IMG/VR virus record: IMGVR_UViG_3300032282_001003
Span: 1 to 55,241 of that record
DNA from: a virus
Length of the DNA stretch: 55,241 nt
Strand: one strand, 5' to 3'
Shown here in pieces: positions 2,272 to 55,189 of this stretch. Position numbers and translations under genes: made by a program. Every line of letters starts with the position of its first letter. Position 1 is the first letter of the stretch. Under the pieces are notes generated by a model, which ran no database searches, was not told the DNA's origin, and saw nothing but the letters and a program-made list of their open reading frames with translations.

Positions 2272-3396
2272 TTACTTGGTGGAGAAAAAGATTTTGTGCT
2301 CGGACAACATCTTGCCGAACGATGCGATGGTTGCAAACAAAGCAACGCGAGAAGATGTAGCAACTGTGTTGCAGAAGATGGACTGCATCTCTGCGCGCAT
2401 GCGCCACACATACTCAACGATTGCCTCGGCCTCTGTCCTGTCCGCTGCACGAGTGACGAACTGGAAGACTTGAATCAACTGCGCTGTGGGATTGTCAGAC
2501 AACGGCGCAGAGTCAGGGGACTTGATGACACGAGCATAGTCACAGATGTCACGGCCAAAGCGGATGAACGATGCCAATGCCTGTGCAGCAGGAGCGCCGA
2601 TAGTACCGACGAGCGCAGTCTCCAACGTCTCGTCGTCAACAACACCGAGGCACGCGTGCAAGATGTCACTGGCCGCAACCAAGGAGCGCGGCGTTGCATA
2701 CGCAAGCTGTAACGACTTGGGATTGAACACCATGCCATTGTCCTTGGACATGTCCTTGCCCTCGAACATGCCGCCCTTCTCGTAGTCGAGGAAGCTGTGC
2801 ATAACACGCGGCTCGTTGTTGACGAACGCAATGACCATCGGATGCACGCCGTTGTCGGTAGCCCACTTGACCCACTCGTCGGAGGCAGACTTACGCATCT
2901 TGACAAACACAAGACGATTACGCAAGTGCGCTTGGATGGAGTCGCCAAGACCCTCGACTGCTAGGTTGGTAGCACAGAACACAACGCTGCCCTCGGGCAT
3001 GCCTAAGTTACCGACACGGCGCTCGTAGATGATTGGAGCGAGTACGTTCTTGATGAACTGCGGAGCCTTGGCGATCTCGTCGAGCATGACCATGATTGGC
3101 TTGGAGTTGTTGACGCCGAACTGGTTGTGTGCGCTGACACCGAAGCGCTCGTTGGGCAACTCGCGGGAGACGCCGTTCTCGCGGTCGAGGTCAGGCATCC
3201 ACACAGAGCCATCGGACAACTGCGTGCAGTCGATGGGTTGCACAGCGATGTGATTGGCAAACTTGGGTAGCTTGCGTAGGCTGTGGAACAGCGCGGTCTT
3301 GCCGATGCCGTTCTCGCCCTCGACGATTACAGTACGCTTGTGGCCGATAGCGGCGATCAGGGAAACAACTTGAGAGTGTGTGAGATAGTGTTGCAT
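2272..3396 (-). CDS. MoxR/CobS-like AAA+ ATPase
   Basis: The protein is 374 residues long. The Walker A motif is GENGIGKT at residues 27-34, Walker B is IMVMLDE at 101-107, a sensor-1 Asn lies at 144 (VVFCATN), and candidate arginine fingers are R159 and R161 in HLRNR. The order and spacing fit the MoxR/CobS branch of AAA+ proteins, which remodel partner proteins together with VWA-domain subunits. It lies between the VWA gene upstream (24-bp gap) and the DUF3150-like gene downstream. The likely role is an ATP-driven chaperone or remodelling motor acting on a viral or host complex. The substrate cannot be told from the sequence. Confidence 0.9.
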   Translation of the reverse strand: MQHYLTHSQVVSLIAAIGHKRTVIVEGENGIGKTALFHSLRKLPKFANHIAVQPIDCTQLSDGSVWMPDLDRENGVSRELPNERFGVSAHNQFGVNNSKPIMVMLDEIAKAPQFIKNVLAPIIYERRVGNLGMPEGSVVFCATNLAVEGLGDSIQAHLRNRLVFVKMRKSASDEWVKWATDNGVHPMVIAFVNNEPRVMHSFLDYEKGGMFEGKDMSKDNGMVFNPKSLQLAYATPRSLVAASDILHACLGVVDDETLETALVGTIGAPAAQALASFIRFGRDICDYARVIKSPDSAPLSDNPTAQLIQVFQFVTRAADRTEAEAIVEYVWRMRAEMQSIFCNTVATSSRVALFATIASFGKMLSEHKIFFSTK

Positions 3397-3420
3397 GATT
3401 AAAGTTCCTTAGGTTAAAAA

Positions 3421-4617
3421 TTACAGAGAGATACGCAAGAGTTTGCCGTGAGTAGGTACGAACGAATCGTTATCTACTATGCCCCACAGAGACGGCATTG
3501 GGGTATCCGGTGTATCGCAACCGAGGTAGCCATCGGACAGCCACACGATTGCTTTAGCATTGATCTTGTTCTTGGTGAGATAGTTCACAACGACTTGCGG
3601 CACAGTACCGCCACCGCCCTTGGGTGCAAGCGATGTAGCGATCTGCTCATAGTCAGCAGGCTTGAACTCCTGCACCGCACACACCGCTGTGTCCCACCAG
3701 ATAACGCGCACAGCCTCAGGCTTGACTTGCTGACAGATGCGTGCGATCTCGCCGAACAACAGACGATAGTACGGATACATGGAGCCCGAAGTATCAGCGG
3801 CAATGACGATCTCACCGACTGACTCGGTGAAGTGCGAAGGCATGACAAAGCCCGATGCAAGCAGTCGCTTGTTGGGTGGACAGAAGCGCGAGTTCTCGTC
3901 ACCCGCAGAGATGGATGTAATCCAATCCTGCATGGCCTCAGTCCAGTTGGTCACACGTTCCTTGGCAGTACCAAAGATGTCACGACCACCGCCTTCCTTG
4001 CCCGCCATCTTGCGTGCGAGTATCTCGCCCTGACGATTGGCATCGTCGATCTGCTTCTCCAGTTTGTCACGCTCGGCTGGGTCATCGGCAAAGTCGCCAT
4101 CCTCGTGCGCGTCGATGGGCTCGTCGAATCCCTCGCCGCCATCGCCATCACCATCCTCGGGTTCCTTGCGGCCTTGCTTGATGAGATCGTTCATGACTTG
4201 AGGGAATGACCACCCGAAGTACTTGCGGTCAATGCACAGCGTTGGTGAGGGACGCTCGACGAAATCGAAGTTGGGGTCAAGCTCCTCGATAAGTGCGTTG
4301 ACCACGTAGTCATGCGCCACGTTGGTCAGCTTGGGATACTTCTTGCGTGCGTCTTTGAACAGGATGCAATGCTTGAGTGCAACGTGGAAGTTCTCATGCA
4401 GTACGAGGTAGCGCAGTTGCTTGCGGTTGAGTGGGGTAATGAATGCCGCGCCGTACTTCTTGTCACGGCCATTGGTTGCGGCGGTTGGCATCTTCTCCAC
4501 CACCTCCGACTTGCCCATGCAGATCACGCTACTGAGTAGCGCAAACTTGGGGTGTCGCATGCAGTCGATGTTGCACGCTTGTACCCTCTGTGTGAGGGTC
4601 ATCTTCTCAAAGGACAT
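3421..4617 (-). CDS. DUF2201-type metallopeptidase-like protein with VWA domain
   Basis: The protein has 398 residues. The N-terminal domain carries an HExxH motif (HENFH, residues 74-78) followed by NVAHDYVVN near 99-107, the arrangement seen in DUF2201_N putative metallopeptidases. An acidic linker (about 150-190, EDGDGDGGEG) leads to a C-terminal VWA-like domain with an intact MIDAS motif DTSGS at 275-279. Such proteins are the usual partner of MoxR-type ATPases. This is the first gene of the operon and has its own promoter at 4645-4676. The SD is GGAG six bases before the ATG. The domains are clear; the biological target is unknown. Confidence 0.88.
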   Translation of the reverse strand: MSFEKMTLTQRVQACNIDCMRHPKFALLSSVICMGKSEVVEKMPTAATNGRDKKYGAAFITPLNRKQLRYLVLHENFHVALKHCILFKDARKKYPKLTNVAHDYVVNALIEELDPNFDFVERPSPTLCIDRKYFGWSFPQVMNDLIKQGRKEPEDGDGDGGEGFDEPIDAHEDGDFADDPAERDKLEKQIDDANRQGEILARKMAGKEGGGRDIFGTAKERVTNWTEAMQDWITSISAGDENSRFCPPNKRLLASGFVMPSHFTESVGEIVIAADTSGSMYPYYRLLFGEIARICQQVKPEAVRVIWWDTAVCAVQEFKPADYEQIATSLAPKGGGGTVPQVVVNYLTKNKINAKAIVWLSDGYLGCDTPDTPMPSLWGIVDNDSFVPTHGKLLRISL

Positions 4618-4644: not shown

Positions 4645-4676
4645 ATTATACCCCAAGTTGTCAATGCTTTGACAAC
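4645..4676 (-). promoter_or_regulatory. leftward promoter with operator-like inverted repeat
   Basis: Reading leftward, a perfect -10 hexamer TATAAT lies at 4650-4645. A -35-like TTGTCA lies 19 bp upstream (4675-4670). The -35 region is covered by an 8-bp inverted repeat GTTGTCAA-TGCT-TTGACAAC (4657-4676). The half-site GTTGTCAA is identical to one half of the palindrome at 7114, so the same regulator may bind both. This would drive the VWA, AAA+ and DUF3150-like genes. Confidence 0.65.
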
Positions 4677-4702
4677 CTAGGGTTTGTACTTAGGGATTGG
4701 GT

Positions 4703-5653
4703 TTACGTAGATATGTTGGTGCGAGGGTAGTCCTTTCTCTGTGGGAACTGGGGAATCTCTACACGCTTGGAGCCCTGCTTGACCCCTGCGTACTTGTAGA
4801 TGCGCTCGACGATGGCACGCCTGAACTCGTCGGTGGTGATGGGTTTGTTTAGCTTGCTGATGGGGTCTATGTTGGTGCCATGCCAGTTACCCATGTGAAA
4901 GTCCGACTGCTCCATACCACGCTTGGATGCGATGGTGTTGTATGCCATCTGACACATGTGGAAGAACGAATTAACATCGGCGGTTGTCGCATTAGGTTGG
5001 TCGTGCATCATTGGGCGCATCGCATGTGCGTACTCATGCACATACCCCTCACCACCGAACGCAGTACCAAGACGCCTGCTCAATGTCGCCTCCGACTCGA
5101 ACTCAGGCATACGCATAAGCGCAAGGTTGATGTAGGCGTCCATCTTATGCAGTATGTCAGCGCGTTGCTGCTTGTCCTCTTTGCTTGATATGGTGCGGTA
5201 GTGCGGCGTGTGCTTTGACCGACTCACGTCCAGCTTGCCATCGACAAACATCAAGTCAGCGCTGAAGCTTGCGTCACCATCACTCACGGAGTTCTTGTAG
5301 TAGATAGGCACAACCATGTCGTCGTCAAGGCGTGCGTAACGATTGTCCCAACTGGCGTGGAGTTGACCGCCATGCCCCAGTATCTCCCACATAAACTTGC
5401 GGCTAGTCAGGGATGGGTGACTGGTATACAGACGGCGCTCGTGTTGCACAGCCATGTCGTCCACTACCGGCTTGTAGAACCGCGCCATCACAGTCTTGTG
5501 GAACACAACGTCGAAGTACTCCTCGCGTTGAATAAGTTTCTTGTGCTTGTACAACCTATCGAGTGGGCGTTCGTTGTTGCCCCACGCTGAACTGCGGACA
5601 GGGCCGCGCACATTGAATGCTTTTACTGCATCTGCATAGTTACGTATCATCAT
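4703..5653 (-). CDS. hypothetical phage protein, 316 residues
   Basis: The soluble protein has mixed charge and many His and Met residues. It contains no motif I can assign: HEYAHAMRPMMHDQ near residue 203 superficially resembles a metal-binding helix (HExxH, HEYAH), and FHMCQ follows about 30 residues later. A zinc-metallopeptidase relationship is therefore possible but unproven. The start follows AAGGAG by seven bases, and one copy of the 16-bp palindrome lies 40 bp upstream. It is separated from the AAA+/VWA operon by that operon's own promoter. Confidence 0.75.
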   Translation of the reverse strand: MMIRNYADAVKAFNVRGPVRSSAWGNNERPLDRLYKHKKLIQREEYFDVVFHKTVMARFYKPVVDDMAVQHERRLYTSHPSLTSRKFMWEILGHGGQLHASWDNRYARLDDDMVVPIYYKNSVSDGDASFSADLMFVDGKLDVSRSKHTPHYRTISSKEDKQQRADILHKMDAYINLALMRMPEFESEATLSRRLGTAFGGEGYVHEYAHAMRPMMHDQPNATTADVNSFFHMCQMAYNTIASKRGMEQSDFHMGNWHGTNIDPISKLNKPITTDEFRRAIVERIYKYAGVKQGSKRVEIPQFPQRKDYPRTNIST

Positions 5654-5692: not shown

Positions 5693-5708
5693 GTGGTCAA
5701 TTGACCAC
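5693..5708. promoter_or_regulatory. 16-bp palindrome, copy 1 (exact)
   Basis: An exact GTGGTCAATTGACCAC lies 40 bp upstream of the gene starting at 5653. The right half reads TTGACC leftward and is followed after 17 bp by TTTATT, so here the palindrome could double as a -35 element or cover one. It also overlaps the last base of the stop codon of the upstream gene. Confidence 0.75.
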
Positions 5709-6079
5709 TAGTCAAAAGGGAAGTTCGTCTGTAGCCTGTGTACTGGGTGCACATACTCAAACAGGAAATCATCGCCTTCCTCTTCTACTTCTTCCGCACC
5801 ATCCTCCCCTACCGCATAGAACCGATAGCTTGCGTCAAACAGTTCCTTCGCATCCTTGTAGATGCTTGTGTGCGCTATGACATACGGAAACGACTCGTAC
5901 CACTTGATATCCTCGGTCTCGAATGTAATCATAGGCTCTGACTTGTACTCATACTCGCAATCAAACATTGCTTCTCTCATCGCCTCCTCGTTCTTTGCAA
6001 GTTGCAGGGACACGTATGCATCCCTGTCTTGGAACGATTTGAACTTGACCACGTAGGCCACATCACTTCTATACCCCAT
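5708..6079 (-). CDS. conserved phage protein starting MGYRSDV
   Basis: The 123-residue protein begins MGYRSDVAYVVKF, a hallmark of a widespread family of small phage proteins of unknown function with a mixed alpha/beta ferredoxin-like pattern. The middle is rich in aromatic and acidic residues, and an EEVEEEGDD stretch precedes the C-terminus. The ATG overlaps the end of the upstream gene by 11 bases and is preceded by AGGAG, so it is coupled to it. Confidence 0.8.
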   Translation of the reverse strand: MGYRSDVAYVVKFKSFQDRDAYVSLQLAKNEEAMREAMFDCEYEYKSEPMITFETEDIKWYESFPYVIAHTSIYKDAKELFDASYRFYAVGEDGAEEVEEEGDDFLFEYVHPVHRLQTNFPFD

Positions 6080-6755
6080 GTTGAATTACTCCTTTACTGT
6101 TGAACCGCCATCCGTTGATGTAGATAAGTTCTTTGAGGTACTCTTCTGTGTAGTACGCGTCATACTCCCTTTGCAATGCGTGGTACATATCGTCTGCATA
6201 CTCCCGCGCTTTGTCCTGTATCCAATCAAGAAACTCTGTATGCAAGTTGTCCGTATTGATGGCACGCATGAGTTCCTGTACTGATGCACCCGCAAGAATC
6301 CCGCCATGAAGTTGTAGATGGGCATTGACATCTTCCTCCTCCCAAAAGGACTCTGTGTAATCAGCGTTCATCGTACCGCTGTGGTTGTAGAAGAACGAGC
6401 GCCGAGTAATCTCCACTTTATGCGGTATCGTGTCGCGTGCGTTCTTAAGGATTTCTAACAGGATGGTGTAGCGCGAGTGTCTGTCTGCGTCCTTGACCTC
6501 GTTGATGTGCGCTTCAAGGAACTCGGCAGTTCGCACGATACCAAGCCATGATGCGCCATCGCCTTGGTTGTGCCCCACACTCCAGTTGGTTTCGTACAGG
6601 TGAAAACCTAGCGCATAGCCGTCCTCTTTGAACTGCTCTGTGATGCAGTCCGCCCAATCGTCAGGCGGTTCTGCATATTCCCTTGCCCTTGCTTGCGCTG
6701 TCGGGCTCAGGTCTTCGTACTCAAATACTTCTGTCGTTTCCATTAGTGTTTCCAT
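6069..6755 (-). CDS. hypothetical phage protein, 228 residues (LSPTAQARAREY type)
   Basis: The first 30 residues contain EYEDLSPTAQARAREYAE, a motif shared by many phage proteins in which a helix rich in Ala and Arg follows a short acidic lead. The rest is helical and acidic. I chose the ATG at 6755 because it overlaps the upstream stop as TAATG and has GAGGTG six bases before it. An upstream ATG at 6794 would add 13 residues inside the previous gene and is unlikely. The function is unknown. Confidence 0.78.
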   Translation of the reverse strand: METLMETTEVFEYEDLSPTAQARAREYAEPPDDWADCITEQFKEDGYALGFHLYETNWSVGHNQGDGASWLGIVRTAEFLEAHINEVKDADRHSRYTILLEILKNARDTIPHKVEITRRSFFYNHSGTMNADYTESFWEEEDVNAHLQLHGGILAGASVQELMRAINTDNLHTEFLDWIQDKAREYADDMYHALQREYDAYYTEEYLKELIYINGWRFNSKGVIQHGV

Positions 6756-7096
6756 TAGTCCACCTCTACGCTGAAAGTTAAGTTGCGTACGCACTCGCGT
6801 ACCTTGTCGTCAAAGTCGAAGTAGTTTATTGCGTTAGTAACACAGTCATCTATCTCCTGCGTGATTGAGTCTTGCGATGGGTGGTCTTCGCGGTCGTTGT
6901 GCTCGTCGATTGCAACTTCGATTGCGTCGTTGACAAGCGTCTCGATGCGCTTGATTGTTTCTTCATTGATTGCGTGTAACGCCGCCTGTGTCTGCATGAT
7001 TTCACTCACGCGTTTGTCCACGAGCGCCATGATGTACGCATCGAACGCAGAGACTACTGCGCTGACCAAGGGGTTGGTTTGGTTTGTCTGTTCCAT
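6755..7096 (-). CDS. acidic helical hypothetical protein, 113 residues
   Basis: The protein is predicted to be all-helical and acidic, with a long helix from about residue 12 to 75 (SAVVSAFDAYIMALVDKRVSEI and onward) and a second acidic segment. The start follows GGAG plus CTTAATC, the same ribosome-binding context as the gene at 5653. A near-exact palindrome lies 18 bp upstream. The stop overlaps the next start as TAATG. No family is recognised. Confidence 0.72.
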   Translation of the reverse strand: MEQTNQTNPLVSAVVSAFDAYIMALVDKRVSEIMQTQAALHAINEETIKRIETLVNDAIEVAIDEHNDREDHPSQDSITQEIDDCVTNAINYFDFDDKVRECVRNLTFSVEVD

Positions 7097-7113
7097 GATT
7101 AAGCTCCAAAAAA

Positions 7114-7129
7114 GTTGTCAATTGACCAC
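7114..7129. promoter_or_regulatory. 16-bp palindrome, copy 2 (one mismatch)
   Basis: GTTGTCAATTGACCAC, one base off the consensus, lies 18 bp upstream of the start at 7096 and just before its Shine-Dalgarno. The altered half GTTGTCAA is the same half-site used in the split repeat at 4657-4676. Confidence 0.7.
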
Positions 7130-7157
7130 AAAGAAGGCATGACCGTTCTCTATGTAA

Positions 7158-7277
7158 TTAGCCATGCCACCACCTACGAACAACGGCTCTTGCGTCTAGT
7201 CGCGTAGCAAACCACACGGCCAAGCCCCTGTCCATATCCTGCATCAAGTGGGCGCTGTCCCACACGTTATTACTCAT
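7158..7277 (-). CDS. 39-residue basic hypothetical protein
   Basis: A short ORF encodes MSNNVWDSAHLMQDMDRGL at the start and an Arg/Trp-rich end (VVRRWWHG). Its ATG overlaps the stop of the membrane protein at 7274-7444 as ATGA, which argues for a coupled gene. A further 15-codon frame overlaps its stop (ATG at 7165) and runs into the palindrome at 7114. I regard that one as unsupported. Confidence 0.5.
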   Translation of the reverse strand: MSNNVWDSAHLMQDMDRGLAVWFATRLDARAVVRRWWHG

Positions 7278-7444
7278 TCCTCATCTCCTTCGTTCAAATA
7301 AGTTGTCATGACGTACCCTATGAGCACACCGCCGAACCCAATGCCAGTTTGAAATAACCCGCTGGCCTCGTTGTCCCAAGACACAGCCACTAGCGCCATG
7401 CCTAGCATGGCTATTAATATGTCTGCTATCGTTTCTTGTTTCAT
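7274..7444 (-). CDS. 56-residue two-pass membrane protein
   Basis: Two membrane segments are visible: about residues 8-22 (DILIAMLGMALVAVSW) and 33-50 (GIGFGGVLIGYVMTTYL), with an acidic C-terminus NEGDEE. The start at 7444 is chosen because TAATG joins it to the upstream gene. Longer forms would begin inside that gene. It could be a holin-like or host-membrane factor, but it lies far from the lysis genes at 33.2-34.0 kb and is expected to be expressed early, so a lysis role is not supported. Confidence 0.65.
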   Translation of the reverse strand: MKQETIADILIAMLGMALVAVSWDNEASGLFQTGIGFGGVLIGYVMTTYLNEGDEE

Positions 7445-7647
7445 TACTGCACCTCCACATAATCCGGCGTGTCCTGCCGTTCCAATACGACTACCTCGCG
7501 TACCAACTTGCGGCACAGCTTGGACGCAACGACACCAACCAACTCCCCAAAGTCCTCGTCGGTCATGTGCCCGTCGTTGTTGTTCAGCGTAGCCAACACG
7601 GCAAAGTCGCCGTCCTCTCGGTGGTATCCGATTGATACTGTCTTCAT
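7444..7647 (-). CDS. 67-residue hypothetical protein (MKTVSIGYHREDGDFAVL)
   Basis: The small alpha/beta protein has an N-terminal strand (KTVSIGYHR) and a helical, acidic middle with a VASKLCRKLVREVVV helix. The ATG at 7647 is preceded by AGGAGAG. An exact palindrome lies 19 bp upstream. The alternative start at 7749 would read through the palindrome and overlap most of the preceding gene's end, so it is rejected. The family is not recognised. Confidence 0.7.
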   Translation of the reverse strand: MKTVSIGYHREDGDFAVLATLNNNDGHMTDEDFGELVGVVASKLCRKLVREVVVLERQDTPDYVEVQ

Positions 7648-8276
7648 GCTTGCTCTCCTGAATTTGTGGTCAATTGACCACTTACTTTCTCCGCTATGAA
7701 CAGCGGTATCCTCAGTTTCTCCCTTGTTGTCATCGGTATCTTGTCCCACTGGGTGCGTGTCAGCGCTATGGCCGTGGGGCTAAGCAAGTCTGGGTAGCGG
7801 TGGTGTCTGTGGGTCTCGGGCTTGAGTGTGTGCTTCATGTAGATGAGCGCCGTCTCGCGTACCAGCAGGGCAATGTAGCCCTCATAGAACGCCGCCACCG
7901 CTATCGCTCCCCGCCCGCCGTGATAACGCAGCGCGGCCTTGGCTCGCGGCAGTTCCTCTTTGATGGGACGCATCACGGCGTCCAGTTCAGCCAACCATGT
8001 GCGCTCCCATCGTTGGCGGGATGCGTGGCTTTCCTTGGCTTCCTTGCGGGCACGGCGTTGCTCGGTGATAAGGCGCAGTTCGAGGTCGCTCATTGCGCCG
8101 CGCTCGACACGTTTTGTAAGTTGTTTGTAAGTAAGTTTGCTCGGTGGTTTGTCACGTTGGCGACAGGCGCTACATTTGTGTGTCCATTCGATGCGGTTTT
8201 TTGCGCGTTTTCGGTACGCTTGCAGGGTTTTTTCTTGGCCGCAGGTAGGGCAAGCGCGGGTGGTTTTGCGGGGCAT
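7644..8276 (-). CDS. zinc-ribbon protein, 210 residues
   Basis: The N-terminus has two Cys pairs, CPTC (9-12) and CSAC (35-38), forming a four-Cys zinc ribbon. A long basic, helical region follows (residues 45-110, with ITEQRRARKEAKESHASRQR) and then a more globular C-terminus. This suggests nucleic-acid binding, possibly a transcription or recombination factor. The ATG at 8276 is chosen because GGAG lies seven bases upstream; the in-frame TTG at 8288 lies inside that region. The last codons run through palindrome copy 3, and the stop overlaps the next ATG. Confidence 0.75.
   Translation of the reverse strand: MPRKTTRACPTCGQEKTLQAYRKRAKNRIEWTHKCSACRQRDKPPSKLTYKQLTKRVERGAMSDLELRLITEQRRARKEAKESHASRQRWERTWLAELDAVMRPIKEELPRAKAALRYHGGRGAIAVAAFYEGYIALLVRETALIYMKHTLKPETHRHHRYPDLLSPTAIALTRTQWDKIPMTTREKLRIPLFIAEKVSGQLTTNSGEQA
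7666..7681. promoter_or_regulatory. 16-bp palindrome, copy 3 (exact)
   Basis: An exact GTGGTCAATTGACCAC lies 19 bp upstream of the start at 7647. It sits inside the last codons of the zinc-ribbon gene, where it encodes part of SGQLTT, so the element was kept even though it constrains a coding end. Confidence 0.75.
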
Positions 8277-8290
8277 GGCAGTCTCCAAAA

Positions 8291-8306
8291 GTGGTCATTT
8301 GACCAC
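8291..8306. promoter_or_regulatory. 16-bp palindrome, copy 4 (one mismatch in centre)
   Basis: GTGGTCATTTGACCAC lies 15 bp upstream of the zinc-ribbon gene's ATG at 8276. The single change falls in the central four bases, leaving both GTGGTC and GACCAC arms intact. That is what one would expect if the arms form an RNA stem or if the protein reads only the arms. Confidence 0.72.
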
Positions 8307-8647
8307 AAATCTGTCAAAGGGTTTACAAAAAGTGTCACGGGATACCCACTGTTTTTGTGTTTCTGGCCTCCAAGTGGACACACCTAAGTCGTTGCTGCGT
8401 ATAGGTTTTTCGGTGGGTCGTCCACAGACCAATGCTTTTTGGGAGAGCTATCAGCCGAGAGTAAAAACACACCCACCAAAACACGGATATATATATCTTA
8501 AGAGAAAAGAGTATTTATATATAGGTATGGTGGGTGTGGGTGGGGAAACGCCTTATAAATCAACGCCTTAGGTGTGTCCAGATGAACGCCAGAAATACGA
8601 AATTGCTGGACAGGCAAAAAAACAACACTTTTTGGCATGGTCTTTGC
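8307..8647. other. non-coding block, candidate replication origin
   Basis: This 341-bp stretch has no convincing gene on either strand. It contains a 14-bp perfect inverted repeat (TGGACACACCTAAG at 8375-8388, its complement at 8567-8580). Between those arms lies an 11-bp perfect inverted repeat (CACACCCACCA at 8468-8478, complement at 8528-8538) flanking a roughly 49-bp AT-rich core. The core holds the 12-bp palindrome GATATATATATC (8486-8497) and a TATTTATATATA run (8512-8523). Arms around an unwinding-prone core fit a replication origin or a site-specific protein-assembly site. This is inference only. Confidence 0.5.
8375..8580. repeat. nested inverted repeats around AT-rich core
   Basis: The outer arms are TGGACACACCTAAG (8375-8388) and CTTAGGTGTGTCCA (8567-8580), a perfect 14-bp match. 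The inner arms are CACACCCACCA (8468-8478) and TGGTGGGTGTG (8528-8538), a perfect 11-bp match. All four arms share a CACACC core. The two pairs are not concentric: their centres differ by about 25 bp. Confidence 0.8.
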
Positions 8648-8839
8648 TTACAGAAGGCGTAGTTGGGTGCAGCTATCTTGTACCTGTTTCCATGTTGGAT
8701 GTCGCTCCTGTTGCTTACGGGCTTGAGCCTTGGCGAGTTCGGCGGCGCGTGGGTCTTTGGCGTAGGCATCGGCCATTGCTTTGAACTCGGCGCGTAGGGC
8801 GCGTAGCTTGGCGAGTTGTTCGGTTTTGATTGATGTCAT
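8648..8839 (-). CDS. 63-residue basic helical protein
   Basis: The protein is a single long, Lys/Arg/Ala-rich helix (EQLAKLRALRAEFKAMADAY and onward), with a likely coiled coil at residues 5-50, and ends CTQLRLL. The ATG is preceded by GGAG at eight bases. It is the last gene before the non-coding block with nested repeats, so a DNA-binding or origin-linked role is possible but not shown. Confidence 0.65.
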   Translation of the reverse strand: MTSIKTEQLAKLRALRAEFKAMADAYAKDPRAAELAKAQARKQQERHPTWKQVQDSCTQLRLL

Positions 8840-8843
8840 GTTT

Positions 8844-8951
8844 TTAGCTCCGAGTCCAAGTGAGGATGGATAAAGCCCGGTTGTTGCGGCAGGCCTCGCG
8901 GTAGGCGTGGAACATGATGGTGCGAAGGAAAGATACGTAGCGTTTGGACAT
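8844..8951 (-). CDS. 35-residue basic hypothetical peptide
   Basis: The short ORF MSKRYVSFLRTIMFHAYREA and onward is strongly basic and probably amphipathic. It has a good SD (GGAG eight bases before the ATG) and ends four bases before the next start. The same ribosome-binding context (GGAG plus about seven bases plus ATCATG) precedes several neighbours. The family is unknown. It sits just after two terminator-like hairpins and so may depend on antitermination. Confidence 0.5.
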   Translation of the reverse strand: MSKRYVSFLRTIMFHAYREACRNNRALSILTWTRS

Positions 8952-8967
8952 GATGGAAGCTCCGGTT

Positions 8968-8988
8968 AAAAAGTGACTGCTTAGTCAC
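8968..8988 (-). terminator. small terminator-like hairpin, leftward
   Basis: Reading leftward: GTGACT, loop AAGC, AGTCAC, then TTTTT. The 6-bp stem (8973-8988) is short, so this is either a weak terminator or an attenuator just ahead of the SD of the 35-residue gene. Confidence 0.5.
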
Positions 8989-9031
8989 GAAATGCACGAT
9001 GTGTGCGAAAACTAACTTACTGGACACAAAC

Positions 9032-9064
9032 AAAAACAGCGGCGGGGCATCGCGCCCGCACCGC
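9032..9064 (-). terminator. GC-rich terminator, leftward
   Basis: Reading leftward, a GC-rich arm (GCGGTGCGGGC) folds back on GCCCCGCCGC, with a small internal bulge, around a short loop. TGTTTTTG follows. It lies downstream of the gene ending at 9098 and would end or attenuate leftward transcription. Confidence 0.6.
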
Positions 9065-9079
9065 CGGAGAAAAACACAA

Positions 9080-9095
9080 GTGGTCAATTGACCAC
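9080..9095. promoter_or_regulatory. 16-bp palindrome, copy 5 (exact)
   Basis: An exact GTGGTCAATTGACCAC lies three bases after the stop of the gene at 9098-9481 and ahead of two terminator-like hairpins (9064-9032 and 8988-8968). This copy is about 130 bp from the next start, unlike the copies that sit next to an SD. Confidence 0.75.
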
Positions 9096-9097
9096 AA

Positions 9098-9481
9098 TTA
9101 GATGGAAGCCAAGAAGCGACGCTTCTCAGCAGCAGTCAGCTTTGCGTAGCTTGACAGCAACTTGTTGACGGCATCGACTTTGTTGTTGCTACCACGCGAG
9201 TCAGACTTCGCAGGGAAGTAGTAGCGCATCGCATTGCGTGCATCGCCCTTGCGCTCGCCGTCGAAAGCAATTGTCGCCTCGCCGTTGTACGTTGAGCGCC
9301 GCGCCTCGCAGCCATAGCTTGCAGCAATGACTTGTGCAGTCTGCATCCGATACGCAAACTGCGCCTCTGCGCCTGACTTGTTGTAGACAGCCTTGAATGC
9401 AAGCAACGACTCGCCAACCCTGCGGTTGGCTGCGAGTGCAAGACGTAGGTCACGGATGAAGGTATTGAACTGAGTGTTCAT
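9098..9481 (-). CDS. first leftward gene, 127-residue hypothetical protein
   Basis: The basic alpha/beta protein starts MNTQFNTFIRDLRLALAANR and ends KLTAAEKRRFLASI. It has no recognised motif. The ATG at 9481 is chosen because GGAG lies nine bases upstream. Earlier in-frame starts would read through the palindrome at 9500 and the hairpin at 9526. As the first gene of the leftward unit, expressed behind an attenuator-like terminator, it is a candidate for an early regulator such as a repressor or antiterminator. That is inference from position only. Confidence 0.7.
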   Translation of the reverse strand: MNTQFNTFIRDLRLALAANRRVGESLLAFKAVYNKSGAEAQFAYRMQTAQVIAASYGCEARRSTYNGEATIAFDGERKGDARNAMRYYFPAKSDSRGSNNKVDAVNKLLSSYAKLTAAEKRRFLASI

Positions 9482-9499
9482 GATGAGTGCTCCAAGTAA

Positions 9500-9515
9500 G
9501 TGGTCAATTGACCAC
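9500..9515. promoter_or_regulatory. 16-bp palindrome, copy 6 (exact)
   Basis: An exact GTGGTCAATTGACCAC lies 19 bp upstream of the start at 9481, between the leader terminator (9541-9521) and the Shine-Dalgarno. No -10 element follows it, so here it cannot be part of the promoter itself. Confidence 0.78.
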
Positions 9516-9520
9516 AAAGT

Positions 9521-9541
9521 AAAAACCCCGCAACGGCGGGG
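9521..9541 (-). terminator. intrinsic terminator in the early leader (attenuator)
   Basis: Reading leftward: CCCCGC, loop CGTT, GCGGGG, then TTTTT. This textbook 6-bp GC stem plus U-run stands between the only good leftward promoter seen here (-10 at 9583-9578) and the first gene (9481). It would therefore stop most early transcripts unless bypassed. Confidence 0.75.
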
Positions 9542-9577
9542 CAACGAACGGCAGGGAATTCCCCAACCGATGCATCT

Positions 9578-9586
9578 AGTATACCA
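9578..9586 (-). promoter_or_regulatory. leftward extended -10 promoter
   Basis: Reading leftward, TGG followed directly by TATACT is an extended -10 element (TGn plus a 5/6 hexamer). No good -35 is found at 16-18 bp. Transcription would start near 9571, and only about 30 nt of leader would precede the terminator at 9541. Confidence 0.5.
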
Positions 9587-41911: not shown

Positions 41912-44900
41912 ATGCCTTTAGCGCTACCTTTACCAGACGGTCGTTTTGTGACTATTCGGGAGGGCGAAACGCCCGAACAAACATGGGCGCGAGCGCAAAA
42001 GATGTATCCAGATGCGTTTGCTGCAAAGCAGGCACCAGCAGCACCGTCCGGTTCGGGAAGCTGGCTTGGCGATGTCGCCACAGCATTCAAACAAGGCGCG
42101 GTAGGGTCAACAAAAGCGTTGACTGATGTCCTTGGCGCACAGAATGCGGCGTCTGCTTCGTTGGGCGCAACGTCCGAAGCGTTGCAAAAAGACTACTCCG
42201 CAGCACGGCAGGCCGAACTACAGGCCCAAGCCGATCGCATGAAACAGGCCGAAGCCTCTGGTAGTACGTGGGAAGAAATCAAAGCTGGCTTGAAAAATGT
42301 GGCCGAAGCGCCCGCACAAGCTGCTGCGCAAGGACTTGGCTCCCTTGTGCCCTACGTCCCCACAATGTTCCTTGGCCCCCTAGCGGGAGCGTTGCGGCTT
42401 GCTAGGCCCACGGTGGCTGCGCTGGAGTCAATCAGCAGCGCCGCGCCTAAAGTTCTTGGCACCGCGCAGGGCATGGGCACGGTTAAAGGTGCGGTGTACG
42501 ACGCCGTTTTGCAGAAAGAAACCGAAGCTGGCGTGTCGCCCGAGGTGGCCAAACAAAAGGCAGAAGCCGCACAAGACTACTTTGGAAAGAACGCAGACCA
42601 GATATTGCTTGGCGGCGGGCTGGGGTATTTGGCCGGTAGCAGCGGCGTTGAGCGTCTACTGACTAAGCCGGGTGTTGCAGCCGCGCCACAGGGGCTTGCC
42701 CGTCGTATCGGTACGGCTGCTGGTGAGGAGTTTATTACTGAGGGCCCGCAAGGCGGGCAAGAGCGGCTTGCCGCAAACTTGGCACAACAGCGTGCCGGGT
42801 ACGATGTCCCAACAATGCAGGGCGTCATTGGCGCAGGACTGCAAGAAGGACTGACAGGTGCGCTCACGGCAGGGCCGGTGGCAGCTTTGCGTGGGCCGCA
42901 GGCCGCAACTACCAAGACCCCCCAGCAGACAGAAGTCGAGCAAGCCCGTGCTGAGGAAGAGGCGCGGCTCCAGAAAGACCGGGAGTACAAGGCAAGCCCT
43001 GCCTACTTGCAAGACGTTGTTGCGCAGTACGAAGATTTGGCCCAGCAAAAGAAAGACTTGGTTGGCCAGAAGAAAAAAATTGAGAAGGGCTCCCTCACCG
43101 AGGACGCTGACAAGGCGTTCAACAAAGACATCGAGACCCAACTCAGTGCGCTGCAAAAGAAGATTAACCCGTTGGCCAAGGACTACTACCAAGCCAAGTC
43201 CTATGTCACCCAGCAGGCAAAGCAAGCTGAACTTGCTGGCATGACTCCGCAGGAGTACATGCTGCAACAGATGGGCGTAAAGCCCTCAGCCGCCAAAGTA
43301 GAACCTGAGAACGAGTGGGTTACGCTGGCTACTCAAAACAAACCTGCCAAGGTTGAGCCTTCGGACGTAGAAAAATACATGCAGGGGCAGTTCCAAGCGG
43401 CCCAAGGACTGGTCAACGATCCGGGCGGCTACGCAGACTACATGATGCAAGACCCCCAGATGGCTGCACAAATTGTGCAGAACCGTTTGAAAGTTCCGGG
43501 GCTATCCGCTTCAGAAAACAACCTGCTCCTGTCGGGCATTTCTTTGCGTCTCAAGGAACAAGAGAAGGTTGCGCAACGTGCAGCCAAACAGGAACTTGGC
43601 CAGCGTCAAGCAGACCTGCAATCACAAAAGCTGACCACGCCGGAAGACCAGATGGCGTTGTTTGCCCAGTCCACAGAGGATGTGGAGAAGCTGCGTGCCG
43701 AGGGCGAGACAAACTTTGACTACCTTGACCCAATGTTTGAGAAGGCGTTGTCGGGCAAGCAGCCGGTAGTCCAAGTAAGCGAGGCAGTTAAGCCCACGGA
43801 CAAGGCCCCCCTGATCCGTCAGCAAGTAGAAAGCCTGATGGAGACGGCTGACCAAGCCGACAAAGATTACCAGACAGCACGAAGCGCCAACCAGCCCGAC
43901 GCTGCCCGCAAAGCATACGAGCGCGGCAACCAAGCCATTGCGCAGATCAACACGCTAAGCAAAGAAGGCGGCGACTACGCCCGTGAGTTCTTGTCCGCAC
44001 GCCGAGCACAGAACAACGCAATGGCGCAGCTTGGTGATATTACCGAGCAGCTACGTACTGGCCAGACGCTGGGCGGTACCAACAAAGAGATGGCCGCTTC
44101 TACCGAGCAGTCACTGACAAACAAAGCCAACCAAGTCCGCGCACAACTTGTTGCTGCCACGCTACAAGAAGCAGCTATCCACCGCCGTGCCGCAGGTAAC
44201 CCTGCGCTCACCTATGACGAAGCCATCAAGGCCGCGTCTGTAGTTCATGATGCCGTCAACGACTGGGTGGAGCGCTCGAAAGTAAAGAATACGCAGCCCA
44301 CGTATGAAGACGTTGTTGTGCAGCCTGCGCAGATGCGCGCAGACAAGATTGTCCGCCCTGCCGTAACAGAGCGTCGTCAGGTGTCTCCGGGCACACAGGC
44401 AATCAGCCCAGCAGAAGCCAAGCACTTCCAAGCCCGCGTGCTTGCAGCACGTAACCAACTGATTGCGCCCCCGCAAGGATTAGGCCGTCGCATTGAGACT
44501 GGCATACTGAAACGCCAGTTTGCTGCACAAGAAGCAGCCAAGACAGCCGAGGCCCGTGGAGAAACTGCCACCACGCTGGCAGGTGAGTTACGCCGTCTTC
44601 GTGAGTATGTTCTGAATAAAGTAGACAAGGTTTTGCAGACGGTTGACTTACCAGAAGGCGGTGCCCGTGTTGTTGGTGGCCCCGATAAATACGGACGTGA
44701 TGAGCGCGGCGTTCTTAGGGAAGAAGGTTTGCGGGAGTTGATGGAACGAGCGCGGGATGTTTTGGATACCGGTACTCCGTCCCGTATGTTGATTGACGCT
44801 ATTGAAGCGCAAGCGGACAGGTTGTTGCGTGGCGAAGATTTAGGAACCACGACTGTTACCCGCACGGTTGTAACAGACCAAGGCCGTAAGGTTGCAAGAA

Positions 44901-47900
44901 CACGGGAAGGCGAGGAAGCATCACCCGTAATGGTTATCCGTGGGCGTAAGTTTGGGCAGGTTGCAGAGGAAGAGGCGCGTGCCCCAGAAAGCCGTTACAC
45001 GGAAGAACTACGTGCAGGTTTGCGTGCATACCAACAAGGGCAAGGACTTGATTTTGAGGCTGGCAGAACACAAGGTTCTGCGCGTTTAACAGAAGAACAA
45101 CGAGCGGCATTGGCACAACAGGGTTTTGATTTTGTTGCGCCCAGCAAAGGTGTAGCCGCAAAACAGATGTCTGCGGAAGAACAGCAGCAACTTGAAGCAA
45201 GTAAACAGCGGCAAGCTGTAAAACAAGCGCAAGCACAGCAATCTTTATTCCCAGAAACCAACGAAGAGTTCGGTTACATCCGTGCCACTGCGGCCAACTT
45301 CGCCAAGTCGCCGCGCATGAAACCTGTGTGGGAAGCGCTGGACAAAGCCCGCGCCCTGTTCAAGAAGACCGAAGCCGCTCGTGCGCAGCGTAGTGCCACG
45401 GTAAAAGCACGCACGCGTGAGTTGGAGAACTTGCAGTCGCGCATTGAGAACATTACCAAGAGCGCTGAGTTCATTGCTGCCCGTCAAGAAAAGTGGACTG
45501 CTGAGCAGTTGGCAAATACTTTTGCGGCTGAAAAAGGCAAGGGCTTGAGCCCGACAGAACGTACCGAGCTTATTAAAGACGCTTTGAGGACAGTGAGCGA
45601 AGGTCGCCGCCTTGATGATTTGGACAATCGCTTGCTTGGTTTCATGCAGGACACCAACAAAGAAATCAGCGATGCTGCCAAAGAAATGCATGAGAAGACC
45701 GCGCCGCTACGTGACGCGGTAGCGGCTATTAAGAAAGCGATGAAGACATCGCCCGTGGTGACGGCTGAAGAAAAAGCAATGCTTGCCCATGAGGATGAGA
45801 TTAAAAAGCAACGCGGCGAATACCAGCGTGCTACAGAGCAGGCGATTGCAACAGCACGCAAGGACATGGAAACCGCACGCGCTGAGTTGCTTGACCCCTT
45901 GATTAAACAAACGTCCGATGCACTGGCCAAAGCTGAGTCCACGCTGACCAAAGAAAAGAAAGCGTTGGAAAAGTTCAAGGCAGATTTTGAGGGCCCGGTT
46001 GAAGGTAGCCCGCAAGTCAAAAACGAAATCAGAACCTACTTCCTGTTTAAGATCGAAGAAAAGCAAGACGTTATTGCGGACTTGACCGGGCAGATTGAAA
46101 AGCAGAAAGACGATCTGGAAGCTTTGGTTGCGCAACGTTACGAGGAGATGGATGGGGCCGCTGCCGTAGCGCAGGCCATGCTGGACAAAAACGTCAAGAC
46201 CGAGCGCACATGGTTGGAGATGTTGGAAGCCCAGTTGGCGTTTGTCCGTGGCGATGACGTGCTCAAGAAAGCAAGCTCGTATCCGTTTGCTGCGGAGCGT
46301 GCCCGCATAAACGCCAAGAATCAAACGCAGGTGGTTAAGGCCGCAGAGAAGCGTGCTGAGGAGTTCAAGGCAGCAGCCAAGACCCAGCAGCAGGAGATGG
46401 AAGCGTTTTGGCAAGACAATCTTGGCGGCGAAGGTATCAAGGTTGCCCGCAAGAAAATTGGCGGCGAACAACGCAAAGCGTACGAAAAAATTGAAACCGA
46501 TATTGCCAAGCAAAAAGAAAAAATTGCAGATATTGAAGCGGCGCTTGAAGGAACTTTGACAAAGCGCGATCGCAACGCCAAAGAAACCGCGCTCAACAAA
46601 GCAAACGAAGCTCTGACAGCTTTGCAAAAAGAAGAGCGCGAGTTCTCCACACGTTTCTACGAAGTATCCAAAACACTGACCAAGGAAGAAAAAGAAGCCA
46701 AGCGTTTGCAGGAAGCAGGCATCCAGTCCGCAATGCGTCTGGATAAGATTGAGCGTAGCGACTTGGTTAAAAACGCCCAGACAAAACTGCTGGCTGACCA
46801 GATTGCAGATCGCCTTGTGCAGTTGGAAGAAGTTCCCGGCTCCAACGACATTGATGAACTTAGAAAAGTACTTGATAGCGACAAGGCCACTGAAAAAGAA
46901 ATTATCAACGCCCAAGTACGTATTGGGTTGTTGCAAGAAATAAAAGCGTTGGAAGCACAGGAAGAAGTACTGAGCGAAGGTAAGCCACGCAGGAAACAAG
47001 GCCCCGCTACCACGCTTAGCAGCAGTGCTTTGGCCAAAGGCAAACCGTTGCGTACTGGGTTTGTTAAGGTTTTGGAAAAAACATCCGAAGCCATGCGTGC
47101 TGAAAAAGAAAGCGGTACGTACGGCGAAGAGCGCTTTACTGGTAGTGATCTTGAGGGTGCCAACTTATTCTTTGGTGGCGAAGATCGTTTCTTCTCACGC
47201 GGCAAACCTGCTGAAGGCCAGACAGTTGCGTCGCTCAAAGAAGAACTGCGTCAAGTCATGGGTGAAAGTGTTACAAGCCGTGGCAACGTAAAAATCTACC
47301 AAAACGTAGAGGACTACATACAACAGCAAAAACCCGAACTGCAAGCCGCGCTTCGTCAACAAATTCCATCAGATGCTAAAGGTTTTGCAAAAGGGAATAA
47401 AGCTGTTTTGTTTGCTGAGAATATTGGTAAGGGGCATGGGCTGGGCGTGCTGCTCCACGAAATCGGCGTACACGTAGGTTTTCGCAGCTTCTTTAACGAA
47501 GGCCAATACAAGGCGCTGGTCAACCAAGTCAAACAATGGGCAAAGCGTACTGACGGCTCCATCGAAGAAAAAGTTGGTAAAGCCGCGCAACGTCGCGTTG
47601 AAATGGCAAACACAGAAGCGTCGCAAGTTGATGATGAGTTGCTGGCCTACGCCGTAGAAGAAGCCGTACAAATGGGTGTTAACCCACAAGGTGTTAAAGG
47701 CGGTTCAGCGTTGCGCAACTGGTTGAACATGGTTGTTGCGGCGTTCAAGAAAGCGCTAAACGCTTTTGGTATCAATCCAACAAACTTACAAGCAGGCGAC
47801 TTGGTTAACTTTGCCTATGGCTGCGCCCAGTTGGAACTCAAAGGAACATGGCACGGCACAGGCGCTAAATTCGATCAGTTTGATTTTGCGTACATGGGCT

Positions 47901-50900
47901 CCGGCGAAGGTGCGCAGGCGTATAGCTGGGGCACGTATCGTGCTCAACGCAAAGGTATAGCAGAAAATTATCGAGATACAGAAGCAAGAAAACAAAAAAG
48001 GGTGTGGGGACAACTTCCAGAAATAGTTGCGTGGAAAAAAACCCAAGAGCCAACTTTTGATGGGCACACCGCAGAAGAATTTTTAAATTTTGCACGAGAC
48101 AAAACAAACAAAAATAAAAAACTTGGTGAAATACCGCACAAATATGCACACACAGTTGCAGAAATATTGGAAACTATTGATCGTGTTCGTGATGGAGATT
48201 TTACTTTTTATAGTACTGTGTCTCCCGCAGCACAATGGGGGGACGTGCTAGAAATGTATGAAAACGGGCTTGATGAGGGCTACCACCCACTTGACCCTGA
48301 TGAAAAAGTTTTTCTTAGTAGCTTGAATTTGGCAAAACTGGGAATACCAAGCAATGAAATTTTGTACCGAGGGCGTCAGTGGGTGGACGCGTGGTTGGAA
48401 AGAGACGACCCCACAAAATATGCCGCAGCAGATGTTTTACATTGGCTACGACACAAAAACCAAGACGCCGTAACTCCAAAAACAATAGCCAAAGCTATCG
48501 AAGAAACTACTAAAAATGCAGAAGAAATTGTTCAACTTTTTGCTGACGAGCCTAACGGCGGTATGTACAAAGACGCACAACAGTTTTTAAAAGGCGTTGA
48601 ACAATTAAGCGCAGAAGACTTTACTTTTAATCCACCCACTGCGCCGCCAATACCAGAACCTACTGGGTATATGGTGCGCACGTTGCACACACGCCCAGAA
48701 AACACATACTTATTGTGGGATGAAAAAGTTGAAAAACAACCTGCGCATGTTTATGACGCGTTGAAAAAACTTTATGAAGATATGCCGCTTACTTTACGGC
48801 AAAAGTTTTTGATGTTGCTTCAGTTAAAAGGTGCTACTGGCGCAGAGTTTTATGAAACGCTTGCGGCTACTGTTGAAAGCAAACAACTAGCATCGCGGGT
48901 AATGGCGGAGTACGGCATATCGGGTAATAAGTATTTTGATTACAGCCGCACCAATAAAGATTTGAGTAAACGCCGTTATAACTACGTTGACTTTTTCGAC
49001 AAAGACGAAGGTGCTCAGATTATTGCGCACAACATTGAACCTGTTGGAACAGACAAGGATGTGATATTCCTGTCCCGCAAAGCCAAGTACAACAACCCTG
49101 AGTTTGAGGACGCCAGCAAGGTCACCAGCCGCATCGTTGCGCAGAACCGTTCGTGGTACGACAACATAAAAGCTAATGCTACCGGGCTGGCTTTTGAGAC
49201 ACAGCTTGTTGATCGCTTCGCTGGCTTTGAGCGCTTGGCCAAGTACATGGAGCCGCTCAAGGGCACCCAGATGATGTTCTATCTGCGCCAGTATGACCAG
49301 CGCATGAACCTTGTGTCCCAGTCCGTAGGCAACGGTGCGCCAGCTCTTGTGGAGAAACAGCGCAAGGACGGCCAGATTGAGCGCATTGTTGAGAGCAAGG
49401 AGGGCGCAAGCCTTTCGGGCGTGGTCAACACGTTGAAAGACGCCAAGCAGTACATTGGTAATGGGGAGGCTGTGAACCAGATGTTCACCACATATCTGGC
49501 TGCGCTTCGTGCCGACAACAAAGGCATTGACTCGTTGAACTTTGGCAAAGACAAGAACGGCAACCCGATTGTTACGCAGGCTGATCTGGACAAAGTTAAA
49601 AAGCTGGTCGATGGCAACAAAGACTTGAAAGCCGTCTTCAACAAAGCCCGCAGCGAGTACAACGAGTACAACCGCAACCTGATTAAGTTCCTTGTGGATA
49701 CCGGGGCGCTTGACCAAGACACCGCAAACAGGCTTGTCCGCGAAGACGATTACATCCCGTTCTATCGTGAGCGCAATGGTGTTGCCCAGTTGCTCATTGG
49801 TAGCGAGTCGCCCATCTACATTGGCAGCATCAAGGAGCAGCCGTACTTGCAAGAGTTGGTTGGCGGTGAGCAGCCTATCCTTGACTTCATGACTAGCTCG
49901 GTGCAGAACACCAACCTGTTGGTGGACATGGGTATGCGCAACCTTGCTACCAAGAACGCCGTCATGGAGTTGGTTGACTTGAAAGCTGCAACGCTGGTCA
50001 AGAAAGCTTCCGGCCCCGATGTGGTCAAGTTCAAGATCGACGGCGGTGAGCGCTACGCAATCATGCACACCGAGAAGGTAAAGATCGGCAACAAGGAGTT
50101 TGAGACAGGTGTGCCCGCCGACATTCTGGTCAAAGGCATGGAAGGTATCCCCACCCAGATGCCGTTCCTGCTCCGCGCTATGGCTGTCCCGTCGCAACTT
50201 TTGCGCAAAGGTATTGTGCTTAGCCCGCTGTACCAAGGCAAGCAGTTGTTCCGTGACTCGTTGGCCGCTCCCATCATCTCGGGCGCTGACTTTTTGCCTG
50301 TCATAGGCGCACTGAAGGAGCTACGCGGCCCAGCCAAACGTGATTTGGAGAAGCGCGGCATTGTGGGCGGGCAGCAGTTCAAGGGCACCAGCGAGGACTT
50401 GAGCAAAATCCTGCGCGACATTGCTGATGACAAGCCGGGCTGGATGCAGGCTTTGGGCAAGCTGGAGTCTGCTGGTATGGAGGCCGATGCGCTTACCCGC
50501 CGTGCCCAGTACAACAGCTACATTGAGCAGGGGCTGTCCGAGATGGAAGCTACGCTGATGGCGCTGGAGTCCATGAACTTCAACAAACGCGGCGCTTCCC
50601 CCAGCATCCACGTAGCCAACGCCTTGATTCCGTTCTTCAATGCGCAGATTCAAGGTCTGAACGTGATGTACAAGGCCATGACTGGCAAGATGCCGTTCAA
50701 TGACAAACTACGCATTCGGGAGAAGATGTTGCAGCGTGCCGCCCTCATGGCGGGTATTACTCTGGCCTACGCCGTACACATGGAGGACGACGAAGCCTAC
50801 AAGAACGCCACGCCTGACCAGAAGTATGGCAACTGGTTTGTGCGAGTGCCGGGTGTGGACGAGCCTGTGCGCTTGCCTGTGCCGTTTGAGGTTGGCTATC

Positions 50901-51682: not shown

Positions 51683-51821
51683 TACCGACAATTGCCTGTG
51701 CATTGATTCGGTGAGGGAGCGCGGCTCTGAGACCTAGCTCCCTCACCTTTTCAACGTCCAGCCCCGGTACAAAGAAGCCTTCACCCGGCCTTAGCTTCGC
51801 CCACGGATAGATTATTTCCAT
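51603..51821 (-). CDS. 72-residue conserved phage protein (GFFVP type)
   Basis: MEIIYPWAKLRPGEGFFVPG, then LDVEKVRELGLRAALPHRIN, then VGIKQNQIGVWFYRK is the pattern of a small phage family with W-KL-PG-GFFVP, a helix and a V-FYR end. The gene overlaps the end of the primase-helicase gene (41 bp) and the end of the giant gene on the other strand (80 bp). The last 13 residues are Ser/Arg-rich read-through of antisense sequence. The ATG at 51821 has GAAGTG upstream; an in-frame TTG before it is rejected. Confidence 0.72.
   Translation of the reverse strand: MEIIYPWAKLRPGEGFFVPGLDVEKVRELGLRAALPHRINAQAIVGIKQNQIGVWFYRKFHVPRLPSRSSSS
51710..51751 (+). terminator. rightward terminator at the end of the virion unit
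   Basis: GGTGAGGGAGC, a 16-base loop, GCTCCCTCACC, then TTTT. The perfect 11-bp stem lies 28 bp after the giant gene. The same bases encode VRELGLRAALPHR of the gene at 51603-51821 on the other strand, so the terminator is embedded in an antisense gene. Confidence 0.82.
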
Positions 51822-54728: not shown

Positions 54729-54938
54729 TTATTTGAAGTCGTCTGTCGCGTGTTCTACGCCCTGCTCAAAGCCTTCTTCAAAGCCTTCGTGGAATATGTT
54801 CGTGCGGTTGTCTATTTCCTGCGCAAGACGTTCAGCCAAAGTTTTAACCCAAGCTCCGTCCAACTTGTCATACCCAACTGTGTGCGCGTACCGAAGCAGT
54901 TCCTCATTACTCAAGTTGTCAGGTTGAATGCCTTGCAT
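54729..54938 (-). CDS. 69-residue acidic hypothetical protein
   Basis: MQGIQPDNLSNEELLRYAHT is followed by an acidic amphipathic C-terminal helix (FHEGFEEGFEQGVEHATDDF). It starts inside the end of the HTH gene (28-bp overlap) and precedes the primase-helicase by 14 bp, so the three genes form one unit. No known family; it may be a small binding partner of a replication protein. Confidence 0.72.
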   Translation of the reverse strand: MQGIQPDNLSNEELLRYAHTVGYDKLDGAWVKTLAERLAQEIDNRTNIFHEGFEEGFEQGVEHATDDFK

Positions 54939-55189
54939 GTTTTACTCCAAGCCTCGTCGCCAGATTTTGACGACTGCAAAATTTTGAGAAGCGCCTGTAC
55001 CGCCGGGCGGTAGGCAACGAAGACTTCCCCGCCGTGGAACCAGTTGTAGACAGACTGACGCGACGCGCCAGTTGCCTTGGCTACCTTGATGGCCGAGAAG
55101 TTGTGGTGTGTAGCCCAACGCCCGAGTTGGTTGCCCAACGTCTTTGGCGCTTGACCAATCCGTTTAATGGTTTGTACTGAGTAGGCCAT
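54911..55189 (-). CDS. HTH DNA-binding protein, 92 residues
   Basis: Residues ~20-70 form a Cro/C1-type helix-turn-helix: LGRWATHHNFSAIKVAKATG as the first helices and ASRQSVYNWFHGGEVFVAYR as the turn and recognition helix. It is a likely regulator of the early genes. A candidate target is the palindrome repeated at 4.7-9.5 kb, which is unproven. Its translation start has an unusual SD-hairpin-ATG arrangement (55187-55217). Confidence 0.8.
   Translation of the reverse strand: MAYSVQTIKRIGQAPKTLGNQLGRWATHHNFSAIKVAKATGASRQSVYNWFHGGEVFVAYRPAVQALLKILQSSKSGDEAWSKTCKAFNLTT

Follow-up and report, generated by a model that had tools for sequence, protein, structure and literature searches.

A genome-specific palindrome array in the leftward unit of an environmental phage and its covariation with a candidate DNA-binding protein

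The virus record IMGVR_UViG_3300032282_001003 of IMG/VR, analysed here over its full length of 55,241 bases (the window; G000 among the records compared), carries a repeated palindrome, GTGGTCAATTGACCAC, in its leftward gene unit. Six copies lie between 5.6 and 9.6 kb and none was found elsewhere in the record. Most sit at gene junctions, and the first leftward gene (gene 1) has copies on both sides; its product is a candidate palindrome-binding protein. The genes and sequence elements are listed in Table 1. The array is beyond chance: six matches are found at up to three mismatches against 0.25 expected (standard deviation 0.54), and none of 100 shuffled windows reached six. The first-pass annotation of this DNA had reported six copies, two of them with a single mismatch and the rest exact, with the copy at 7666 inside a coding end, and the motif search bears this out. 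It had also placed four copies 15–19 nt before a start codon; the proximity to starts holds, but the true gaps are 17, 18, 14 and 18 nt. Its remark that copy 4 changes only in the centre is correct, while the change in copy 2 sits in an arm. Copy 1 shares the last base of the open reading frame (ORF) at 5708–6079. Elsewhere in the window, an inverted repeat at 4659–4678 (GTTGTCAATGCTTTGACAAC), upstream of the start of a VWA-like gene, is palindrome-like, but its spacer is longer and an arm base differs.

Table 1. Positions of the palindrome copies, the genes discussed and neighbouring sequence elements in the window. HTH, helix-turn-helix.
Feature	Position	Strand	Description
Palindrome copy 1	5693..5708	.	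exact; 39 nt before ATG of ORF 4703-5653
Palindrome copy 2	7114..7129	.	GTTGTCAATTGACCAC, one arm mismatch; 17 nt before ATG of ORF 6755-7096
Palindrome copy 3	7666..7681	.	exact; within 3' end of ORF 7644-8276, 18 nt before next ATG
Palindrome copy 4	8291..8306	.	GTGGTCATTTGACCAC, one mismatch; arms intact, spacer ATTT; 14 nt before ATG of 210-aa gene
Palindrome copy 5	9080..9095	.	exact; directly after gene 1 stop codon, before terminator-like hairpin
Palindrome copy 6	9500..9515	.	exact; in gene 1 leader, 18 nt before ATG
Gene 1	9098..9481	-	127 aa, first leftward gene, palindromes on both sides; candidate palindrome-binding protein
Gene 3	7644..8276	-	210 aa, weak endonuclease-like PHROG matches; comparison gene among the palindromes
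HTH-like protein	54911..55189	-	92 aa; binder proposed by the first-pass annotation, disfavoured
Terminator-like hairpin	9042..9059	-	3' of gene 1; hairpin at the equivalent place in >40 related loci
Terminator-like hairpin	9525..9542	-	between putative promoter and palindrome copy 6
Extended -10-like element	9578..9586	-	TGGTATACT; possible leftward promoter, pattern only; 9-mer common to L043, L089, L095, L113 and L115

Relatives were recruited through the terminase, giving 80 loci (81–96% identical), and the region left of the terminase was searched mechanically for repeated palindromes, with ten shuffles per locus and the virion side of each locus as controls. In 46 loci, including the window, 3–8 copies of a locus-specific palindrome are present; the maximum for any repeated palindrome was two in the shuffles and two in the virion part. 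The arms differ from genome to genome (GTGGTC, GTGGAC, GTGGAG, GCGGAC, GGGGAC, GGGGAA, GGGGAG, GGGTCA, GTGGGA, GGGAAC, GATTCA, TGTGAG and GGGGTG). The palindromes of the relatives nevertheless occupy the same gene junctions as those of the window, with conserved flanks, and comparison shows one palindrome replacing another in place between nearly unchanged flanks: GGGGAGATTTCTCCCC in L077 and GGGGAACTTGTTCCCC in L106, GCGGACAAACTGTCCGC in L058 and GTGGTCAAATGACCAC in G001, and, at the copy 1 junction (5693), GTGGACAACTGTCCAC in L043 and the window sequence. One copy in the GGGGAG and GGGGAAC classes is intragenic, and there the encoded residues shift with the palindrome (GGEKSPQ versus GGELVPQ). 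The first-pass annotation had held that its proposal would fall if close relatives lacked the array or if shuffled DNA gave similar palindromes as often. Neither is the case: position is kept while sequence changes in concert, and the shuffled background stays below the observed count. In a scan for the exact 16-mer, most matching contigs hold a single copy.

An array is also found in the cultivated Planktothrix phage Pag-Yong1 (terminase 45% identical), which has 21 exact copies of GGTTCANNNTGAACC, with none in 20 shuffles. Many of these precede an annotated leftward start by 21–22 nt, and virion genes contain some copies too. No array was found in the first 50 kb of either HTVC027P or DSL-LC04, and a literature search found no paper describing the window palindrome or Pag-Yong1. 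Allowing one mismatch raises the number of sites in Pag-Yong1 (L161/L162) to 37, reaching into virion genes. The 16 exact copies in its leftward unit, read on the sense strand, have C (8 copies) more often than G (4 copies) at the spacer centre, a possible orientation signal.

The palindromes fit sites for a symmetric DNA-binding dimer rather than RNA hairpins. They are symmetric and span 15–19 bp, and any one genome keeps its arms constant while its spacer sequence is free. Spacing is rigid: 206 intact-arm copies have the spacer length of their own genome and four have any other length between 0 and 15. Symmetric half-sites, rigid spacing and a free spacer are the features by which a dimeric operator would be recognised. 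Pairing maintained through compensatory or G-U changes, the corresponding mark of an RNA control element, is not seen: 183 copies are perfect and 15 carry one-sided changes, with no compensatory (paired) change among them, and sense-strand mismatches show no preference for G-U (2, versus 8 A-C). In L112, individual copies combine the half-sites GTGGCAC and GTGGAAC; this disrupts a stem pair but suits two half-sites that are read independently. It is this combination of rigid spacing, free spacer, absence of compensatory change, absence of G-U preference and half-site mixing that favours a dimeric DNA site. The alternative role put forward in the first-pass annotation, an RNA hairpin controlling translation, processing or antitermination, is disfavoured on the same grounds and by the intragenic copies.

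Of the genes compared, gene 1 follows palindrome class most closely. The gene-by-gene comparison was made among four near-complete or long records, two with GTGGTC arms (the window and G001) and two with GCGGAC arms (G006 and G012). Gene 1 is 57% identical between the window and G001 and 58% between G006 and G012, but only 20–22% between palindrome classes. Most other leftward genes place G001 nearer to G006 and G012 than to the window; the gene 3 product of G001, for instance, is 30% identical to that of the window and 64% to that of G006. Over all pairs, gene 1 separates same from different palindromes with an area under the curve of 0.974; the corresponding values are 0.918 (gene 3), 0.87 (TerS) and 0.716 (TerL). 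The class of the nearest neighbour predicts the palindrome correctly in 34 of 39 cases for gene 1, compared with 24 of 39 for TerS, 21 of 39 for TerL and 20 of 29 for gene 3. The palindromes of L074 and L093 are set apart by a single spacer base pair; the two loci are 98% identical in TerS and 88% in gene 3 but 43% in gene 1. L041, a locus initially missed by the search, has a TerL 96% identical to that of the window together with a type-E gene 1 and a type-E palindrome (GGGTCACTGTGACCC).

Gene 1 types follow palindrome class, and several are related to one another by profile comparison (A–D, A–E, A–F and D–E; hhalign probabilities 88–97); type B aligns with type A. Profile searches over 43 sequences matched gene 1 alone; HTVC027P and DSL-LC04, the two phages in which the array search came up empty, gave no match to it. 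Gene 1, which lies between copies 5 and 6, is a better candidate binder than the HTH protein at 54911, which the first-pass annotation had suggested as the regulator of an operator array. The notion of an operator array for a phage regulator is supported by the comparison; the choice of regulator is not. The recognition helix of the HTH protein, SRQSVYNWF, is identical in GTGGTC and GCGGAC phages, and it is an unlikely binder because one helix is kept across different palindromes. Its relatedness in the four-genome comparison likewise does not follow the palindrome. No copy of this protein was found in bacterial genomes.

Models of the gene 1 product place helices around a β-hairpin, followed by C-terminal helices, in both types modelled. 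Type A has the order α-α-β-β-α-α-α, with a predicted local distance difference test (pLDDT) score of 83, and type D has a pLDDT of 80. A BEN domain was considered and rejected, as its match (E 0.0025) falls under the Pfam cut-off and the modelled β-hairpin is unsuited to it. Foldseek rows for type D include scattered, non-significant MarR-family entries, which are a lead only. Searches with tblastn found gene 1 types A, C and E in no cultured phage. Whether gene 1 represents a new family of small phage DNA-binding proteins without a recognisable known fold, in which half-site sequence and spacing evolve fast, the multi-copy array matches in place and many mutually exclusive specificity groups arise inside a single phage lineage, appears to us an even call.

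We propose, with a probability of about 0.6, that the gene 1 product is a dimeric autoregulator acting on an operator- or stoperator-like palindrome array, most likely repressing leftward transcription, and that its specificity and its sites change together by lineage. The array, its conserved positions, the exchange of arms in place, the rigid spacing and the covariation with gene 1 come directly from the comparison of genomes; that the protein binds the sites, that it does so as a dimer and which way it regulates are what we infer from it. The palindromes would be double-stranded DNA sites of a phage-encoded dimeric protein, most likely that of gene 1, which would bind at gene starts through the leftward unit, its own leader included. 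Bound protein would block initiation or elongation as an operator- or stoperator-like roadblock and lower leftward transcription, leading to autoregulation of gene 1 and a timed shut-down. Half-site sequence, half-site spacing and all sites would change together in each phage lineage, and related phages would carry versions of gene 1 that do not recognise each other's sites. Of these steps, roadblock repression is the one we are least sure of. Placement relative to promoter-like motifs varies from site to site (upstream of, downstream of or within genes), as expected of roadblocks.

Several observations count against this proposal. No known protein family, HTH or other DNA-binding families included, passes the cut-off for gene 1, and Foldseek found no significantly similar solved structure for the type A or type D model. 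The first leftward protein of Pag-Yong1 matches gene 1 weakly and over a short C-terminal tail only. The GGGACA class includes divergent gene 1 sequences, and five of the 39 nearest-neighbour assignments by gene 1 are wrong, four of them going to a sister class one or two arm bases away. A 72-aa ORF at 51603–51821 leans weakly the same way as gene 1 in the four-genome test. Gene 1 is also linked to the array, and part of the correlation may reflect shared inheritance, although gene 3 tracks the palindrome less well. Pure DNA symmetry does not predict the mild excess of C over G in sense-strand spacers (153 versus 100) or the T-richness, relative to background, of the 8 nt after the sites, and the distance from site to start codon is tight at many sites (e.g. 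21–22 nt in Pag-Yong1). No tyrosine integrase was found in 10 records, other routes to lysogeny not having been searched, and a role as an immunity repressor is therefore unproven. As a separate observation, the first leftward protein of Pag-Yong1 shares 39% identity with a second protein of that phage (L161 12307–12828, minus strand), so that there may be two members of the tail-bearing family there.

The same dimer could bind the sites without repressing, and instead activate leftward transcription, help polymerase past the gene 1 hairpins, or organise or mark phage DNA. This seems unlikely but well worth keeping in view. In its favour, more than 40 related loci have a palindrome and then a hairpin after the gene 1 stop codon; this hairpin is strong, its stem varying in sequence yet keeping its pairing, and is present in nearly every locus examined. 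L089, L113 and L115 each have a palindrome immediately 5' of the putative −10 element, an activator-like position, and the Pag-Yong1 sites in virion genes lean the same way. Against it stand the variable placement of sites relative to promoter-like motifs and the lack of promoter hexamers at a set distance from them. Sigma-70 promoters tied to the palindromes were rejected because neither −10 nor −35 hexamers are enriched at any fixed distance. It is quite improbable that the copies act as RNA hairpins ahead of the ribosome-binding site, whether as targets of a phage protein or as processing, protection or attenuation signals. Each copy could fold as a 6–7 bp stem, many copies occur just before the Shine–Dalgarno (SD) sequence at a near-fixed distance, and the spacer asymmetry and T-rich tails noted above lean in this direction. 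A fixed stem with a free loop is, however, the reverse of usual hairpin recognition, a search of the palindrome region against Rfam gave no family match, and the spacing, substitution, L112 and intragenic evidence given above speaks for DNA. Apart from the palindromes themselves, a conserved CTCTCCACAACGTATTGTGGAGAAG just after the palindrome in L058, G001 and L089 would, by self-pairing, hide an SD-like GGAG before a GTG start.

The remaining alternatives concern the identity of the protein. Gene 1 might merely hitchhike with the array, the true binder being another phage gene outside the comparison; most loci are fragments and the gene-by-gene comparison covered four near-complete genomes, which leaves room for this, but we consider it distinctly unlikely. 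Gene 3 lies among the sites and still follows palindrome class less well, and the 72-aa ORF was the only other gene to lean the way of gene 1 in the four-genome test. Most improbable of all is that the sites belong to a host transcription factor and differ as the hosts differ. Phages do carry host-regulator sites; CtrA, for one, is reported to control some alphaproteobacterial phages (PMC9437464). The palindromes here instead track a phage gene, and both arms and spacing change between phages with terminases 95–98% identical.

Three known systems offer comparisons with the proposed array. Lambda-type nut/boxB elements are short, phage-specific, hairpin-forming repeats in early transcripts, and their recognition depends on the loop and on structure. 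The palindromes share the first of these properties, but it is their arms and spacing that are fixed, as for DNA operators, and their loops vary freely in sequence. The closer parallels are the stoperators of mycobacteriophage L5 and the extended start-associated sequences (ESAS) of cluster K phages; the palindrome system works like both, yet fails a defining feature of each. As with L5 stoperators, many copies of one genome-specific site are spread across a transcription unit, mostly in short intergenic gaps (six in the window, 3–8 in the relatives, 21 exact in Pag-Yong1), and site consensus and phage protein diverge together between relatives. In the L5 system a repressor maintains lysogeny of a temperate phage and, when bound, ends transcript elongation. 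L5 stoperators are asymmetric, oriented 13-bp sites bound by a monomeric immunity repressor with an N-terminal HTH and a stoperator domain (PMC9283540, PMC6550527). The palindromes, by contrast, have two-fold symmetry and a rigid spacing; their candidate binder belongs to no known family, and the search for an integrase was negative. ESAS are imperfect 17-bp inverted repeats with variable spacers, mostly of 4–13 bp, tied to an SAS/SD element (SAS, start-associated sequence; PMC3203893, PMC12699233). They resemble the palindromes in lying just upstream of gene starts and mostly outside structural genes, in having a subcluster-specific consensus and in that their binder is likewise not known. 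The palindromes differ in their near-perfect arms, in a spacer length fixed for each genome and in having a named candidate binder. By eye, the sites are followed by ordinary GGAG-type SD sequences, no dedicated scan for the ESAS-linked SAS GGGATAGGAGCCC having been made.

If the proposal is correct, the arrays would provide dozens of natural protein–site pairs, some of them one base or one spacer base pair apart. Such pairs would make it easier to follow how a DNA-binding protein evolves jointly with its many dispersed sites, a question that has long been puzzling in multi-site regulators. The proposal would also suggest a function for gene 1, an unannotated family with members throughout environmental phages, and a possible basis for mutual exclusion between related phages.

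Two further regions of the window contain genes of interest. A 3256-aa polyvalent protein (41912–51682, plus strand) carries an LPD38 domain at its C-terminus and gives a weak match to ADP-ribosyltransferase. These being its only matches, an N4-like virion RNA polymerase with hairpin promoters, an idea suggested by the size of the protein, was rejected. At 2272–4617 on the minus strand, an ATPase (phrog_1297) adjoins a VWA/metallopeptidase-like protein that PHROGs calls an HNH endonuclease; for this protein the libraries disagree.

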